Virus record (IMG/VR): IMGVR_UViG_3300037245_001041
Span: 1 to 34,165 of that record
Strand: one strand, 5' to 3'
Length of the DNA: 34,165 nt
From: a virus
Shown here: in pieces, positions 11,358 through 30,573 of the stretch
How positions within the stretch are numbered: the first letter of the stretch is position 1
Layout: each line of letters opens with the position of its first letter
The notes under the pieces: model-generated
Databases searched by the model: none
Told to the model about the DNA's origin: nothing
The model's input: only the letters and a program-made list of their open reading frames with translations
Position numbers and translations under genes: made by a program

Positions 11358-11599
11358 TGGAAGATAGAAAACCGTGGGAATGCCCAAAGTGTAATCGAGT
11401 TAACGCACCATGGATGGACTCTTGCCCGTGTGTGGACGTGTCATCCCCACAAAGCCCAGTGCCGTATCCCTTTTACCCAAGCTATCCAACATATCCTAAT
11501 TATCCATATTATCCACAGTTGCCAATCACTTGGATTACAAGCGGGACAATAACAACTACGGATACCACCGACGCCACTATTGGCAGTGAAAAGAAATGA
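11357..11599 (+). CDS. Zinc-finger protein with Tyr-Pro repeats
   Basis: An 80-residue protein with an unusual make-up. Residues 7-25 read Trp-x-Cys-x2-Cys-x3-Asn-x6-Cys-x-Cys, close to the RanBP2-type zinc finger. Residues about 34-56 are a Pro/Tyr tract in which Tyr-Pro recurs with single-residue spacers. A Thr-rich tail follows. The gene is joined to its neighbours by a TAATG overlap upstream and an ATGA overlap with the spanin gene. The finger could bind RNA or protein and the Tyr-Pro tract is expected to be extended. The function in a lysis operon is unknown. It may have little role in lysis itself. Confidence 0.75.
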   Translation: MEDRKPWECPKCNRVNAPWMDSCPCVDVSSPQSPVPYPFYPSYPTYPNYPYYPQLPITWITSGTITTTDTTDATIGSEKK

Positions 11600-11916
11600 C
11601 ATGGCTCAAGTTCGTGCCATGGATTGTAGCCACTTGTTGCTTACTGGCTACGTTTGTGTCCATCAAGATTGCCGCAAAGCGAAAGGCTCAGGTGGACGAC
11701 CTAGCAAAGAAGCTCACAACCATCACGGTGAACATTTCCCGCTTGAAAGCAGCAAAGGAAGACGATGCCGCCGCCATCGCTAGGCGTAGGCCGTTGCTCG
11801 TTGAAATCACGGAGGCTAAGAGTGATAAAGATGCTGAGGCTGTTGTTGATACTTTCCGTCGTCATGTTCTTGATGGGCTGCAAAACGTGCCCAGGCCCGG
11901 TGATTCTCCCGGATGA
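11596..11916 (+). CDS. Inner-membrane spanin (Rz-like)
   Basis: A 106-residue protein with an N-terminal membrane anchor (residues 4-25), then a basic Lys/Arg stop and a helical, Ala/Lys/Asp-rich periplasmic domain. This is the expected architecture of an i-spanin, which crosses the periplasm and pairs with an outer-membrane lipoprotein to fuse the membranes at lysis. The last 95 bases overlap the o-spanin gene in another frame, the classical Rz/Rz1 arrangement. It implies a diderm host. Confidence 0.8.
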   Translation: MTWLKFVPWIVATCCLLATFVSIKIAAKRKAQVDDLAKKLTTITVNISRLKAAKEDDAAAIARRRPLLVEITEAKSDKDAEAVVDTFRRHVLDGLQNVPRPGDSPG

Positions 11917-12091
11917 CTTACCGGCTGTCGAGATAACCGGCGACGACAATGTCGACCTGTTCGAGCTAACCGTCCAGGATATCCGATGGCGTATCTTGAT
12001 GGCTAACGCCCGCTTTATCACCGGCGAAATTACCGAAGACTATAGAGACACCCTAGTGTCATTCTATCTCGGGCTAATCGATGGCGAGTAG
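11822..12091 (+). CDS. Outer-membrane lipoprotein spanin (Rz1-like)
   Basis: An 89-residue lipoprotein. GTG at 11822 is preferred because GGAGG (11811-11815) lies six bases upstream; ATG 11831 is the alternative. The signal peptide has Lys3 and Arg6, a Leu/Val/Ile core and a Phe-Leu-Met-Gly-Cys lipobox (Cys20). A Pro-rich segment follows (residues 24-32), then an acidic helical part. Overlap with the i-spanin and the lipobox make the o-spanin call strong. It is longer than lambda Rz1 (60 residues). The gene ends the late operon, just before a perfect hairpin. Confidence 0.8.
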   Translation: MIKMLRLLLILSVVMFLMGCKTCPGPVILPDDLPAVEITGDDNVDLFELTVQDIRWRILMANARFITGEITEDYRDTLVSFYLGLIDGE

Positions 12092-12111
12092 ATATACCTC
12101 TCAAGGTATAT
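12092..12111 (+). terminator. Perfect hairpin directly after the spanin genes
   Basis: ATATACCT (12092-12099) pairs with AGGTATAT (12104-12111) around a CTCA loop. The sequence immediately downstream is T-rich (TTCGTATTTCTT) but lacks a pure T tract, and the stem is AT-rich. It could be a weak end of the late transcript or an mRNA-processing site preceding the tRNA-like element. A partly similar CCTCAAGGT sequence follows at about 12125-12133. Confidence 0.45.
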
Positions 12112-12156
12112 TCGTATTTCTTACCCTCAAGGTGATATTTATTACTTAGCAAACCG

Positions 12157-12231
12157 TTGGCTGTGCCGGGATAGTCTACGGAACCCGATAACTAATTGGG
12201 TGCAATGCGGGTGCAAGACCCGTCAGCCAAA
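12157..12231 (+). tRNA. tRNA-like cloverleaf, non-canonical
   Basis: The geometry is that of a full tRNA: 7-bp acceptor stem (12157-12163 with 12224-12230), two linker bases starting with T at position 8, a 3-bp D stem (12166-12168 with 12179-12181) with a 10-base loop, a single base 26, a 5-bp anticodon stem (12183-12187 with 12197-12201) that can extend by one A-T pair to leave a 7-base loop, a 5-base variable loop and a 5-bp T stem (12207-12211 with 12219-12223, one G-T pair) with a 7-base loop directly abutting the acceptor. The loops are atypical: T loop TGCAAGA, no T before the anticodon in the 7-base form, no GG in the D loop, and no encoded CCA. The central triplet would be ACT; a CTA lies one base off centre. 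It may be a degenerate tRNA, a specialised tRNA-like RNA, or a missed functional tRNA. Confidence 0.55.
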
Positions 12232-12233
12232 TA

Positions 12234-12275
12234 CACACAATCTACACAATCAGCTATCACCGGATGCTATATACT
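12234..12275 (+). promoter_or_regulatory. Early promoter region with conserved CACACAATC motif, copy 1
   Basis: The motif CACACAATCTACACA spans 12234-12248 and a -10-like TATACT lies at 12270-12275, 36 bases from motif start to -10. No good -35 hexamer is present; the motif itself occupies that region, as in activator-dependent promoters. It precedes the gene at 12294, whose ribosome binding site AAGGAG is at 12282-12287. Confidence 0.6.
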
Positions 12276-12293
12276 CGATGTAAGGAGTAATAG

Positions 12294-12656
12294 ATGGAAG
12301 AATGGATGACCCTAAAACTAGAGAACCTGTCTAACGACATCCTCAAAGATGGGCTGTATGAGTTTTGTGTTTTTGATTATCGTGCTTCACATAAATGGAC
12401 ACCATCGGAGAAGGCACCACTGAGCATTTTAGTATCTGCTGCCGCTGGAGAAGTCTACCGCTACCGCAGACTCCAACCAAAGCAGCTAAGCCCTAAAGAA
12501 AAACTGACAAAGGAAATTGAGTGCATCCTTGGTGGTGCCCCAATATATGCTTTTCAACAGAGCGGGATAGAGATAGAAAGCCTCGTTGGATACATGCTCC
12601 CTAAAATATGGGAGTACATAACTCTACATTGCGTCAGCATCCCACCGCCGGAATGA
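12294..12656 (+). CDS. Hypothetical early protein
   Basis: A 120-residue protein, the first gene after the lysis region and under its own motif-bearing promoter. It has mixed alpha/beta composition with a Glu-Val-Tyr-Arg-Tyr-Arg-Arg stretch in the middle and a Cys/Pro-rich C-terminus (Cys113, three prolines near the end). No family is recognised. Its location at the head of the rightward early region suggests an early takeover or regulatory role, which is inference only. It stands alone, since copy 2 of the motif starts right after its stop codon. Confidence 0.65.
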   Translation: MEEWMTLKLENLSNDILKDGLYEFCVFDYRASHKWTPSEKAPLSILVSAAAGEVYRYRRLQPKQLSPKEKLTKEIECILGGAPIYAFQQSGIEIESLVGYMLPKIWEYITLHCVSIPPPE

Positions 12657-12659
12657 ATA

Positions 12660-12701
12660 CACACAATCAACACACACAGCCCCGGCGATATGCTGTAGAT
12701 T
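12660..12701 (+). promoter_or_regulatory. Promoter region with conserved motif, copy 2
   Basis: CACACAATCAACACA, the best consensus copy, spans 12660-12674. A -10-like TAGATT at 12696-12701 again begins 36 bases after the motif start. The spacing and the downstream ATGCT...AAGGAG context match copy 1 without gaps. It precedes the recombination operon (ATG at 12720). Confidence 0.65.
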
Positions 12702-12719
12702 CATAGCAAGGAGATAACT

Positions 12720-13214
12720 ATGGGAAAAGAGACTATCAAGATTCACGGCAAAGACTATGAGACGGTAGCGTCTCGCGTTGCTAGGTTTAGGGCCGTGTAT
12801 GGGCAATGGTGTATTGCCACAGAGTTATTGCACCATGACGCGGAGCGGGTAGTTATGAAGGCTGTCGTTGCCGACCATGAAGGAACGGTGATGGGCGTAG
12901 GCCATGCGGAAGAATATCGCAAGGCGTCCAGCATAAACAAGACATCGGCAATGGAGAACGCGGAAACGTCGGCCATTGGGCGGGCTTTGGCGGCTTGTGG
13001 TTACGGCGGGACAGAATATGCAAGTGCTAACGAGATTGTCGGGGCTGGCGTTGATTCACTTCAAGAACACCTTGACGGCTTGAAGCGGTGTCAATCCATG
13101 GATGAACTGCATAAATTCTACGAAAAAGTATACACGTTATTCACCGACACCGAATCCCGCAGAATCCTAGTGGAGTGTAAAGACGAATGCAAATCGAAAT
13201 TGACGAAGAAGTAG
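12720..13214 (+). CDS. ERF-like single-strand annealing protein
   Basis: A 164-residue protein with the motif block Ser-Ile-Asn-Lys-Thr-Ser-Ala-x-Glu-Asn-Ala-Glu-Thr-Ser-Ala-Ile-Gly-Arg-Ala-Leu (residues 71-90) followed by Tyr-Ala-Ser-Ala-Asn-Glu (100-105), a signature I associate with phage ERF/Rad52-like annealing proteins. The adjoining gene encodes a YqaJ exonuclease, the standard partner, which strengthens the call. The pair would resect double-strand ends and anneal strands during replication and genome circularisation. The C-terminal helical part (115-164) may contact the exonuclease or SSB. The genes overlap by 28 bases. Confidence 0.75.
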   Translation: MGKETIKIHGKDYETVASRVARFRAVYGQWCIATELLHHDAERVVMKAVVADHEGTVMGVGHAEEYRKASSINKTSAMENAETSAIGRALAACGYGGTEYASANEIVGAGVDSLQEHLDGLKRCQSMDELHKFYEKVYTLFTDTESRRILVECKDECKSKLTKK

Positions 13215-13834
13215 AGCAGGGGACAGAGGCGTGGTACGCGCAAAGAACCGGCAAAATGACGGGTTCTCGTGCTGTCGATATCGTCAAAGGGCCGAAGGGC
13301 TCCTACACGGCAGCTCGTAAGAACATGATAGCCCGCCTCGTATGTGAGCGCATGACAGGCGAGCGGGAGGAAACGTACCAATCCAAGGAAATGCAATGGG
13401 GAACCGACCACGAGGCCCTGGCGCGGTCTGTGTACGAGATTGTATCAGACCGGGACGTACAAGAGACCGGATTTATCAACCATCCCACAATCGCAAACTT
13501 TGGCGGCTCCCCCGATGGGCTGGTAGGCGACGACGGGCTGACCGAAATCAAATGTCCTGGCACTGCCACGCATCTAGCCCTATTGGTAGGTGGTAACGTA
13601 AAGCGGGAATACATCTACCAGATGCAAGCCTACATGTTAATCACCAACAGAAAGTGGTGCGACTTCATCAGCTATGACCCGCGATTGCCGGATAGCCACT
13701 GTATCTACATCAAGAGGATTATGCGCGACGAGAAGATGATAGCCGAGATTGAAGCTGAGGCCGTCAAGGTATTAGCAGAAGTCGACGCAATGATGGAAGC
13801 TATTAAGGATTACAAACCAGAGATAACAAAGTGA
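13187..13834 (+). CDS. YqaJ-type recombination exonuclease
   Basis: A 215-residue protein of the lambda-exonuclease/YqaJ superfamily. Visible motifs: Gly-Thr-Glu-Ala-Trp-Tyr-Ala-Gln-Arg (12-20) with Thr-Gly-Ser (25-27), Gly-x3-Glu-x-Leu-Ala (72-79), the catalytic Ser-Pro-Asp-Gly (108-111; Asp110) and Glu-Ile-Lys-Cys-Pro (120-124; Glu120, Lys122), and Tyr-x-Tyr-Gln-Met-Gln (142-147). All catalytic residues are present. It should degrade the 5' strand of DNA ends processively and load the annealing protein encoded just upstream. It overlaps the next gene by four bases (GTGA). Confidence 0.92.
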   Translation: MQIEIDEEVEQGTEAWYAQRTGKMTGSRAVDIVKGPKGSYTAARKNMIARLVCERMTGEREETYQSKEMQWGTDHEALARSVYEIVSDRDVQETGFINHPTIANFGGSPDGLVGDDGLTEIKCPGTATHLALLVGGNVKREYIYQMQAYMLITNRKWCDFISYDPRLPDSHCIYIKRIMRDEKMIAEIEAEAVKVLAEVDAMMEAIKDYKPEITK

Positions 13835-17096: not shown

Positions 17097-17917
17097 TGGC
17101 TACCCAACGATATATAAGCACATCATTTTGGGACGATCCTTGGGTCTGCCAGTTAGACCCGGCTGAGAAATTTATCTATCTCTATCTCATGACAAACCCA
17201 TTAACCAACATTGCCGGGGTCTATGAGATAACGGTTAGGCGTATTTGCTTTGACACTGGATATAATAATGAAACGGTGTCGAATATCCTTGAGCGGTTCC
17301 ACGAATCAGGCAAGGCGCTAAGGTGGGAGAGCTATACAATAATTCCATCATGGCCGAAGCATCAGAAGTGGGAAACAAGGAAACAGATCGAGATAGGTAT
17401 AGAAAAAATACTTGTGAATCTTCCTAGTGAGCTTTTAGCGCAGCTAGAGGATATGTCTTATAGCTATCCTATAGGTAAGATACCCATAACCTATACACAA
17501 GGTCCGAGCTATTCTGATCTGGATAAGGATAAGGATATAGATAAGGAAGCGCCAAAGGCGAAGCCTAACGATAATTACACTTCTGATTTTTTAGACTTCT
17601 GGACAACATACCCATCGAGCGAAGGCAAGCGCCCGGCATTCACAGCCTGGAAGAAACTAGCCAAGCACCGCCCACCAATTGGCGACATCATCGCAAAGCT
17701 AGAAGCGTTTAAGCAAACCGATAAATGGAAGTCTGGTTATGTTCGCAACCCGGCCACCTGGATCAATCAGCGCGGGTGGGAGGACGAAATACAAACAACG
17801 CACACACAACCCACACCAACCCCACAAAAAGAGCTTGGATACTGTTTTAGACACGGGCCAGCCGGTTATCGTCTTGACGATGACGGATCTTGCCCGATGT
17901 GTAAGGAGTTAGCATGA
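17096..17917 (+). CDS. Replication initiation protein (O/DnaD-like)
   Basis: A 273-residue protein. Residues 1-110 form a winged-helix-like N-domain, including Ser-Phe-Trp-Asp-Asp-Pro-Trp and Leu-Thr-Asn-Ile-Ala-Gly-Val-Tyr, as in phage replisome organisers. A charged Asp/Lys linker (about 140-150) follows, then a C-terminal domain with Phe-Trp-Thr-Thr-Tyr-Pro and Asn-Pro-Ala-Thr-Trp-Ile-Asn-Gln-Arg-Gly-Trp (about 160-227). The protein ends with Cys-Phe-Arg-His...Cys-Pro-Met-Cys, a zinc-ribbon-like addition. It should recognise the phage origin and recruit the DnaB helicase encoded downstream. A partial CACACAA motif lies in its linker-coding DNA (17803-17817). Confidence 0.8.
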   Translation: MATQRYISTSFWDDPWVCQLDPAEKFIYLYLMTNPLTNIAGVYEITVRRICFDTGYNNETVSNILERFHESGKALRWESYTIIPSWPKHQKWETRKQIEIGIEKILVNLPSELLAQLEDMSYSYPIGKIPITYTQGPSYSDLDKDKDIDKEAPKAKPNDNYTSDFLDFWTTYPSSEGKRPAFTAWKKLAKHRPPIGDIIAKLEAFKQTDKWKSGYVRNPATWINQRGWEDEIQTTHTQPTPTPQKELGYCFRHGPAGYRLDDDGSCPMCKELA

Positions 17918-20153: not shown

Positions 20154-20182
20154 GTTGCGCCGGTTGGGTGGTCGGATATAAT
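20131..20182 (+). promoter_or_regulatory. Promoter with conserved motif, copy 4
   Basis: The motif CACAGAATCAACACA (20131-20145) lies in the last codons of the helicase gene. A consensus promoter follows: TTGCGC (20155-20160), 16-bp spacer, TATAAT (20177-20182). Motif start to -10 is 46 bases, ten more than in copies 1-3. It drives the small-gene cluster from 20200. Confidence 0.75.
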
Positions 20183-25312: not shown

Positions 25313-25584
25313 ACGTCAAGAGTGGTAGTATTGACTTGTATAGTCCCGCAATGCCTATCAACGATGCACAAACTTGCGGGGCGTTTTACTTTGGGACATC
25401 CCGGGATGATCTCAAGGCGTATCCCAGTTAGGGTGCAGTTGCGACGACACGGTGACGGTGGATATTGTAACCGCCAACCAAGGCGAGCCACCGCCTATGA
25501 GTGTGGTAGAGGTGGCGCTTTGGTCCTATACGCCAAGAACGCAAGAAGGGCCCAAACCGAGTAGCGGGCAACCAAGGAGATACA
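25313..25584 (+). promoter_or_regulatory. Non-coding region before terminase: late promoter, structured leader, candidate cos/pac
   Basis: No convincing gene lies here. It contains a 7-bp stem CCCGCAA/TTGCGGG (25345-25351 with 25374-25380), a 12-bp palindrome CATCCCGGGATG (25397-25408), a promoter TTGCGA (25439-25444), 18 bp, TATTGT (25463-25468), and just after it a 14-bp stem: 25477-25485 plus 25488-25492 pair with 25511-25524, with a 2-base bulge. The promoter would drive terminase and head genes. A non-coding, palindrome-rich stretch right before terminase is also where cos or pac sites are often found. Which role applies cannot be decided from sequence. Confidence 0.55.
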
Positions 25585-30528: not shown

Positions 30529-30573
30529 CACACAACGCACACACTTGCGTGCTAAGGGCATAAGGGATATCAT
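30529..30573 (+). promoter_or_regulatory. Capsid promoter with conserved motif, copy 6
   Basis: The motif variant CACACAACGCACACA (30529-30543) directly precedes TTGCGT (30545-30550), a 17-bp spacer and TATCAT (30568-30573). Motif start to -10 is 39 bases. It lies between the MuF-like gene and the scaffold gene and should boost capsid expression. Confidence 0.7.

Follow-up and report, generated by a model that had tools for sequence, protein, structure and literature searches.

A tRNA-like cloverleaf without decoding bases in the gap between late and early genes of an uncultured tailed phage

In an uncultured tailed phage, we found a 75-nucleotide element, located between lysis and early genes, that folds into a complete tRNA-like cloverleaf. 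The bases needed by a working tRNA are absent. Rather than a tRNA, the element is therefore probably an RNA that resembles one, or else a DNA control region with a chance fold. We tentatively favour a non-decoding RNA, derived from a tRNA or mimicking one, which perhaps acts as a processing or 3'-end signal. The window, i.e. the whole stretch of DNA analysed, comprises one viral record (34,165 bp). The parts of the cloverleaf are the following:

12157 to 12231, plus strand: tRNA-like cloverleaf of 75 nt including the discriminator A12231, from fold, geometry and the covariance model R1 (see below); layout TTGGCTG-TG-CCG(GGATAGTCTA)CGG-AA-CCCGA(TAACTAA)TTGGG-TGCAAT-GCGGG(TGCAAGA)CCCGT-CAGCCAA-A
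12157 to 12163 and 12224 to 12230, plus strand: acceptor stem of 7 bp, TTGGCTG pairing with CAGCCAA
12166 to 12181, plus strand: D-like arm of 3 bp (CCG/CGG) with the 10-nt loop GGATAGTCTA, without A14, G19 and A21
12184 to 12200, plus strand: anticodon-like arm CCCGA-TAACTAA-TTGGG, central triplet ACT, no T33
12207 to 12223, plus strand: T-like arm GCGGG-TGCAAGA-CCCGT, abutting the acceptor

The minimum free energy (MFE) structure calculated with RNAfold (-30.0 kcal/mol) is the cloverleaf itself, with fully paired acceptor, anticodon and T stems and two G-U pairs. A first-pass annotation had described a 7-bp acceptor, T8, a 5-bp T stem whose 7-base loop abuts the acceptor and a length of 74 plus discriminator, all of which are borne out by the sequence and the fold. 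The altered loops it pointed to are equally real: the T loop reads TGCAAGA, the D loop has no GG (no G19), and T33 is missing. A D stem is present as claimed, but it has only 3 bp, against 4 in a standard tRNA, and closes a 10-nt loop; likewise, the one-base linker and five-base variable loop hold if A12183 and T12201 form a possible sixth anticodon pair, but become 2 nt and 6 nt with the 5-bp stem. Counted either way, the anticodon domain comprises 25 nt versus 23 in a canonical tRNA. The conserved set of tertiary bases is incomplete, with T8, T54, C56 and A58 present (G18 as well, by one numbering) and A14, G19, A21, T33 and T55 absent, as is CCA. The T-like arm retains G53-C61, T54, C56, R57 and A58, and lacks T55 and Y60. 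Acceptor and T arm thus fit tRNA geometry, the 3-bp D stem and the extra bases of the anticodon domain do not, and the form is tRNA-like rather than canonical.

Could such a fold arise by chance? A match to all spacings had been called unlikely, and our estimate agrees. Our descriptor required complete pairing of a 7-bp acceptor, a 5-bp anticodon stem and a 5-bp T stem, demanded three or more pairs in the D stem and left the spacers permissive. It gave one match in the window, while first-order random sequence amounting to 510 Mb yielded 33, which corresponds to 0.0044 matches expected per window on both strands (many features were inspected, and this and the following chance statistics are post hoc). 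None of the 33 random matches carried T54, C56, R57, A58 and G53 together, as the element does. After dinucleotide shuffling, the cloverleaf was the MFE structure in 23 of 10,000 sequences and equal stability was reached in 99 of 10,000; a scan of every 75-nt window of the record, both strands included, gave no cloverleaf more stable than the element. Taken together, these tests leave pure accident as a minority reading.

The resemblance to real tRNAs was probed with R1, a covariance model built from the one element sequence. Over 706 kb of tRNA-rich phage DNA, R1 gave 13 matches at E<=1, and 12 of these are tRNA genes (of 415), the best scores being those of a tRNA-His (35.5 bits), a tRNA-Leu (30.1), the T5 tRNA-Asp (28.7) and a tRNA-Asn (26.8). 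Two control models, with base pairs and loop letters shuffled within the same structure, geometry and composition, had no match in the same DNA. The tRNA-likeness proposed at first pass is thereby strengthened, both by a geometry beyond chance and by this recognition of 12 tRNA genes. It is mainly the T arm and the 3' third that look like a tRNA: the nearest sequence, a tRNA-His(GTG) of IMGVR_UViG_3300042987_003051 (L210:5018-5093), agrees at 18 of 20 bases (ATGCGGGT..CCCGTC; element AT-GCGGG-TgCAAGa-CCCGT-C, tRNA-His AT-GCGGG-TTCAAGT-CCCGT-C). Against a set of 385 unique tRNAs, 8 of 1000 shuffled cloverleaves did as well as the element over the last 31 nt, and 46 of 1000 in mean whole-length similarity; the best single whole-length similarity is unremarkable (137 of 1000 as good). 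Moreover, GGGTGCAA forms a tandem direct repeat at 11-bp spacing (12198, 12209), and some of the resemblance in the T loop may therefore be coincidental. We regard this as moderate evidence, which suggests but does not prove that the element descends from a tRNA or mimics its acceptor/T half. R1 also weakly matched a 65-nt tRNA-like sequence in another phage record (L255:9037-9101; 16.1 bits, E 0.095), with TTGGCGG...CCGCCAA ends, a GCGGG T stem and no normal anticodon arm; it looks like a tRNA fragment and was not retained as a homologue.

Established tRNA finders responded differently. ARAGORN at default settings called no tRNA at the element and named it tRNA-Ser(act) only at 95% of the threshold or below, where 0.05 chance calls per window are expected; at 70% the program was useless, with several calls per kb. 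The covariance check suggested in the first-pass annotation came out negative: the Rfam tRNA model (RF00005) produced no candidate at E<=10, and with permissive filters over 141 nt nothing exceeded about 11 bits, a ceiling scaled from T5 E-values. In phage T5, our positive control, the same model found 27 tRNA or tRNA-like matches down to 20.8 bits and picked up the most divergent tRNAs as well as the annotated tRNA-like RNA1 (24.0 bits). By this measure the element does not qualify as a tRNA, and the result shows that default tRNA finders miss elements of this kind. A minus-strand Rfam match to Plastid-ycf2 (17.5 bits), whose model consensus resembles plastid trnI in reverse complement, lies far below gathering and was treated as chance.

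All credible genes of the record lie on the plus strand, and its TerL shares 45-52% identity with Bacteroidales phage terminases and up to 53% with IMG/VR contigs. The surroundings of the cloverleaf are arranged as follows:

5' part, plus strand: head-tail adaptor, tail genes, metallophosphoesterase, Rz/Rz1-like spanin pair, then a 202-bp gap
11596 to 12091, plus strand: Rz/Rz1-like spanin pair, from translations
12092 to 12111, plus strand: AT-rich 8-bp hairpin ATATACCT-CTCA-AGGTATAT, just 3' of the spanin genes
12230 to 12274, plus strand: putative early promoter, AATACACACAATCTACACA element and then TATACT
12294 to 12656, plus strand: first early ORF, 120 aa, no family match
After the gap, plus strand: early genes for a RecE-like exonuclease, an SSB-like protein, a DnaD-like loader and a DnaB helicase
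Then, plus strand: DNA methyltransferase, TerL, portal and major head protein

The first spanin ORF (11596-11916) has an N-terminal transmembrane segment and the second (11765-12091) overlaps it in another frame, with the lipobox LMGC of an o-spanin lipoprotein; a Pfam search of the two gave no match. As read from the translations, such a pair would imply a Gram-negative host. The cloverleaf sits in the 202-bp gap (12092-12293) between these late lysis genes and the early promoter and is one of the 75-nt windows without called ORFs, which make up only 4.4%. The hairpin at 12092-12111 is a possible late terminator or operator, and a second ACC-CTCA-AGGT stands at about 12122-12133. Directly at the 3' end of the cloverleaf lies the AATACACACAATCTACACA element, and from 12234 a CACACAATCNACACA element that recurs at 12660, 15766, 20131, 21705 and 30529 (plus strand), upstream of gene starts (0.17 expected by chance, <=2 mismatches allowed); one more site, at 17803, is inside a gene. 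TTGCGC-N16-TATAAT promoters follow the recurring element at 20155 and 21739, and a TTGCGT-N17-TATCAT promoter follows the copy at 30529. The recurring element is probably an activator or operator site of the phage itself, and together with the promoters that follow it at other sites it makes the gap look like the late/early control junction of this phage. No clear sigma-70 promoter driving the cloverleaf was found, so the element, if an RNA, probably rides on late read-through.

Is the cloverleaf conserved elsewhere? In blastn searches against phages neither 211 nt nor 25 kb of the record found a match, and the phage collection holds no close relative. A 22-mer pattern of the element had zero matches in IMG/VR, and none of the six matches to a 3'-half pattern folds tRNA-like. 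Relatives sought by protein, via the exonuclease, the portal, TerL, the ORF at 12720 and the metallophosphoesterase, were only distant and mostly non-syntenic loci, and R1 found no homologue among them, in collections that may omit near-identical records. Unconserved stems in related phages and a poor covariance score had been named beforehand as evidence against the tRNA-like reading, and the lack of a homologue in related loci, like the negative RF00005 result, partly goes against it. An R1 match in a different record, L017 (15.6 bits, E 0.27), was set aside as part of an unrelated intergenic array. That record carries downstream of TerL (11370-13300) an array of small ORFs with structured GTTGCGC/TAAC-like spacers, reminiscent of a cassette array.

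A second structured RNA was found in the same record: a solitary abiF RNA (RF03085; 45.5 bits, gathering 37) at 25345-25381 on the plus strand, after a terminator-like hairpin, with no Abi_2 gene found in the window. The conserved abiF core occurs in at least 120 viral stretches of IMG/VR; in 76 of 120 the nearest tRNA gene is no more than 60 nt off, usually at a distance of 5-10 nt, which places the core inside phage tRNA arrays. None of 47 abiF-core records tested had Abi_2 at E<=0.01; the positive control phiC2 scored 7.8e-51. In C. difficile, the abiF RNA (RCd22) neutralises the AbiF toxin by direct action (PMC12373285). Cyanophage S-CREM1 has also been reported to carry an orphan abiF RNA, apparently without an anti-AbiF interpretation (PMC9964418). 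Further abiF-RNA-like sequences, both unannotated and weak blastn matches, lie in Aeromonas phage T7-Ah (MT740748.1, 20552-20591, between the connector and scaffold genes) and in Salicola phage CGphi29 (HQ634153.1, 8599-8641). The frequency of orphan abiF RNAs in phage tRNA arrays without Abi_2 suggests the hypothesis that they are RNA antitoxin decoys against host AbiF. This opens a wider and more testable idea, namely that phages carry RNA antitoxins against the AbiF of their hosts.

What, then, is the cloverleaf? ACCCG/CGGGT half-sites at 12183, 12197, 12208 and 12218, the hairpin behind the spanin genes, the recurring CACACAATCNACACA element from 12234 and the GGGTGCAA tandem would all suit a DNA control region whose inverted repeats and half-sites are operators or iterons by the early promoter, with no RNA function and a cloverleaf by chance. 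The silence of ARAGORN and RF00005 agrees with such a region, but in DNA the two G-U pairs of the cloverleaf would count as mismatches, and neither the rarity of the geometry nor the recognition of tRNA genes by R1, which shuffled cloverleaves do not reproduce, would be expected of it; we consider it a serious although somewhat unlikely account. A functionless, decaying tRNA gene acquired from the host or from another phage, an option raised at first pass, would explain the tRNA-like T arm and 3' third, the missing CCA and the lost invariants. Neutral decay, however, would not spare stems while removing loop invariants. Here several loop invariants are gone but pairing in the acceptor, anticodon and T stems is still complete, and we therefore disfavour decay and consider it unlikely. 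A working non-canonical tRNA, reading either as serine (ACU) or as amber (CUA), has in its favour the complete cloverleaf and the tRNA-Ser(act) call of ARAGORN at the 95% threshold. We give it hardly any credence, with T33, the GG of the D loop and CCA missing, an anticodon domain of 25 nt and no RF00005 match. The CTA triplet does lie off-centre, as had been noted, and the amber decoding once considered for it found no support and was rejected on account of this position, the missing T33 and the use of TAG as the end of 16 of the 61 ORFs. An attP integration site was also dismissed, no integrase being present among the ORFs examined; attP normally contains only part of a tRNA.

An abundant tRNA mimic might instead act as a decoy or sponge that keeps host anticodon nucleases or tRNA-sensing defences busy, or its altered loop might let it escape them. 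Evasion of tRNases has been proposed for phage tRNAs whose anticodon loops are altered (PMC10264068), evasion of retrons has been reported for some phage tRNAs (PMC11555353), and the orphan abiF RNA of the same record is itself a candidate anti-defence RNA. We consider a decoy improbable, since no promoter was found, T33 and the D-T contacts usually needed for tRNA recognition are missing, and no target is known among defence proteins. Least of all apart from the working tRNA do we expect a phage antisense or immunity RNA of the P4 CI or P1 C4 kind, whose loop would pair with nearby leaders. The operon-junction position would suit it, and the D loop ATAGTCTACGG is complementary to 12033-12043 at 10 of 11 bases; yet no such family matches in Rfam, and 27 to 98 of 100 shuffled loops paired with the neighbourhood just as well.

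Our preferred reading remains the non-decoding tRNA-derived or tRNA-mimicking RNA. The loss of loop invariants alongside intact main stems counts for it; the silence of RF00005 and the unremarkable whole-length similarity count against it. We infer that the element is transcribed, probably through read-through of the late operon. A 12-bp acceptor/T minihelix with a tRNA-like T loop is a recognition target of RNase P and of the tRNA 3'-processing enzymes, and the late transcript could thus be cut there. Cleavage would give the lysis mRNA a structured 3' end, or release a small stable RNA, and would separate late from early transcription. The bases of the anticodon and D loops may have been lost because neither decoding nor a canonical D-T elbow was needed. 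A bolder version, which we think rather unlikely, is a lone tRNA mimic of which only the RNase P and acceptor/T half was kept, as a late/early processing mark or an anti-defence decoy beside the orphan abiF antitoxin mimic. If the element is indeed a processed non-decoding RNA, it would show that phages retain the module for tRNA processing independently of decoding.

In comparison with known systems, the element shares with the tRNA-His(GTG) described above the cloverleaf, T8, the 7-bp acceptor and the 5-bp T stem with its 7-nt loop, and departs from the tRNA family (RF00005) in the missing G19, A14, A21, T33, T55 and CCA, the 3-bp D stem and the 25-nt anticodon domain. The P4 CI and P1/P7 C4 antisense RNAs are small, structured, tRNA-like RNAs at operon junctions that are processed by RNase P; the element has the same junction setting, but neither an Rfam match nor a significant antisense target, i.e. 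neither a known-family match nor pairing with a neighbouring leader. Closest in kind are RNA1, RNA2 and RNA3 of phage T5 (AY543070), annotated as tRNA-like stable RNAs of unknown function, a precedent for a phage non-decoding tRNA-like RNA. Like them, the element combines a tRNA-like fold and similarity with the lack of a functional tRNA call, and RNA2 and RNA3 are likewise undetected by RF00005 at E<=10, whereas RNA1 is detected. The T5 RNAs differ in that they lie in a large tRNA array, RNA1 and RNA2 measure 125-144 nt, they show no sequence relation to the element, and they are annotated as stable RNAs whereas the element is known here from its sequence alone. If our preferred reading holds, the element would offer a small test case for these functionless 'tRNA-like stable RNAs' of T5.
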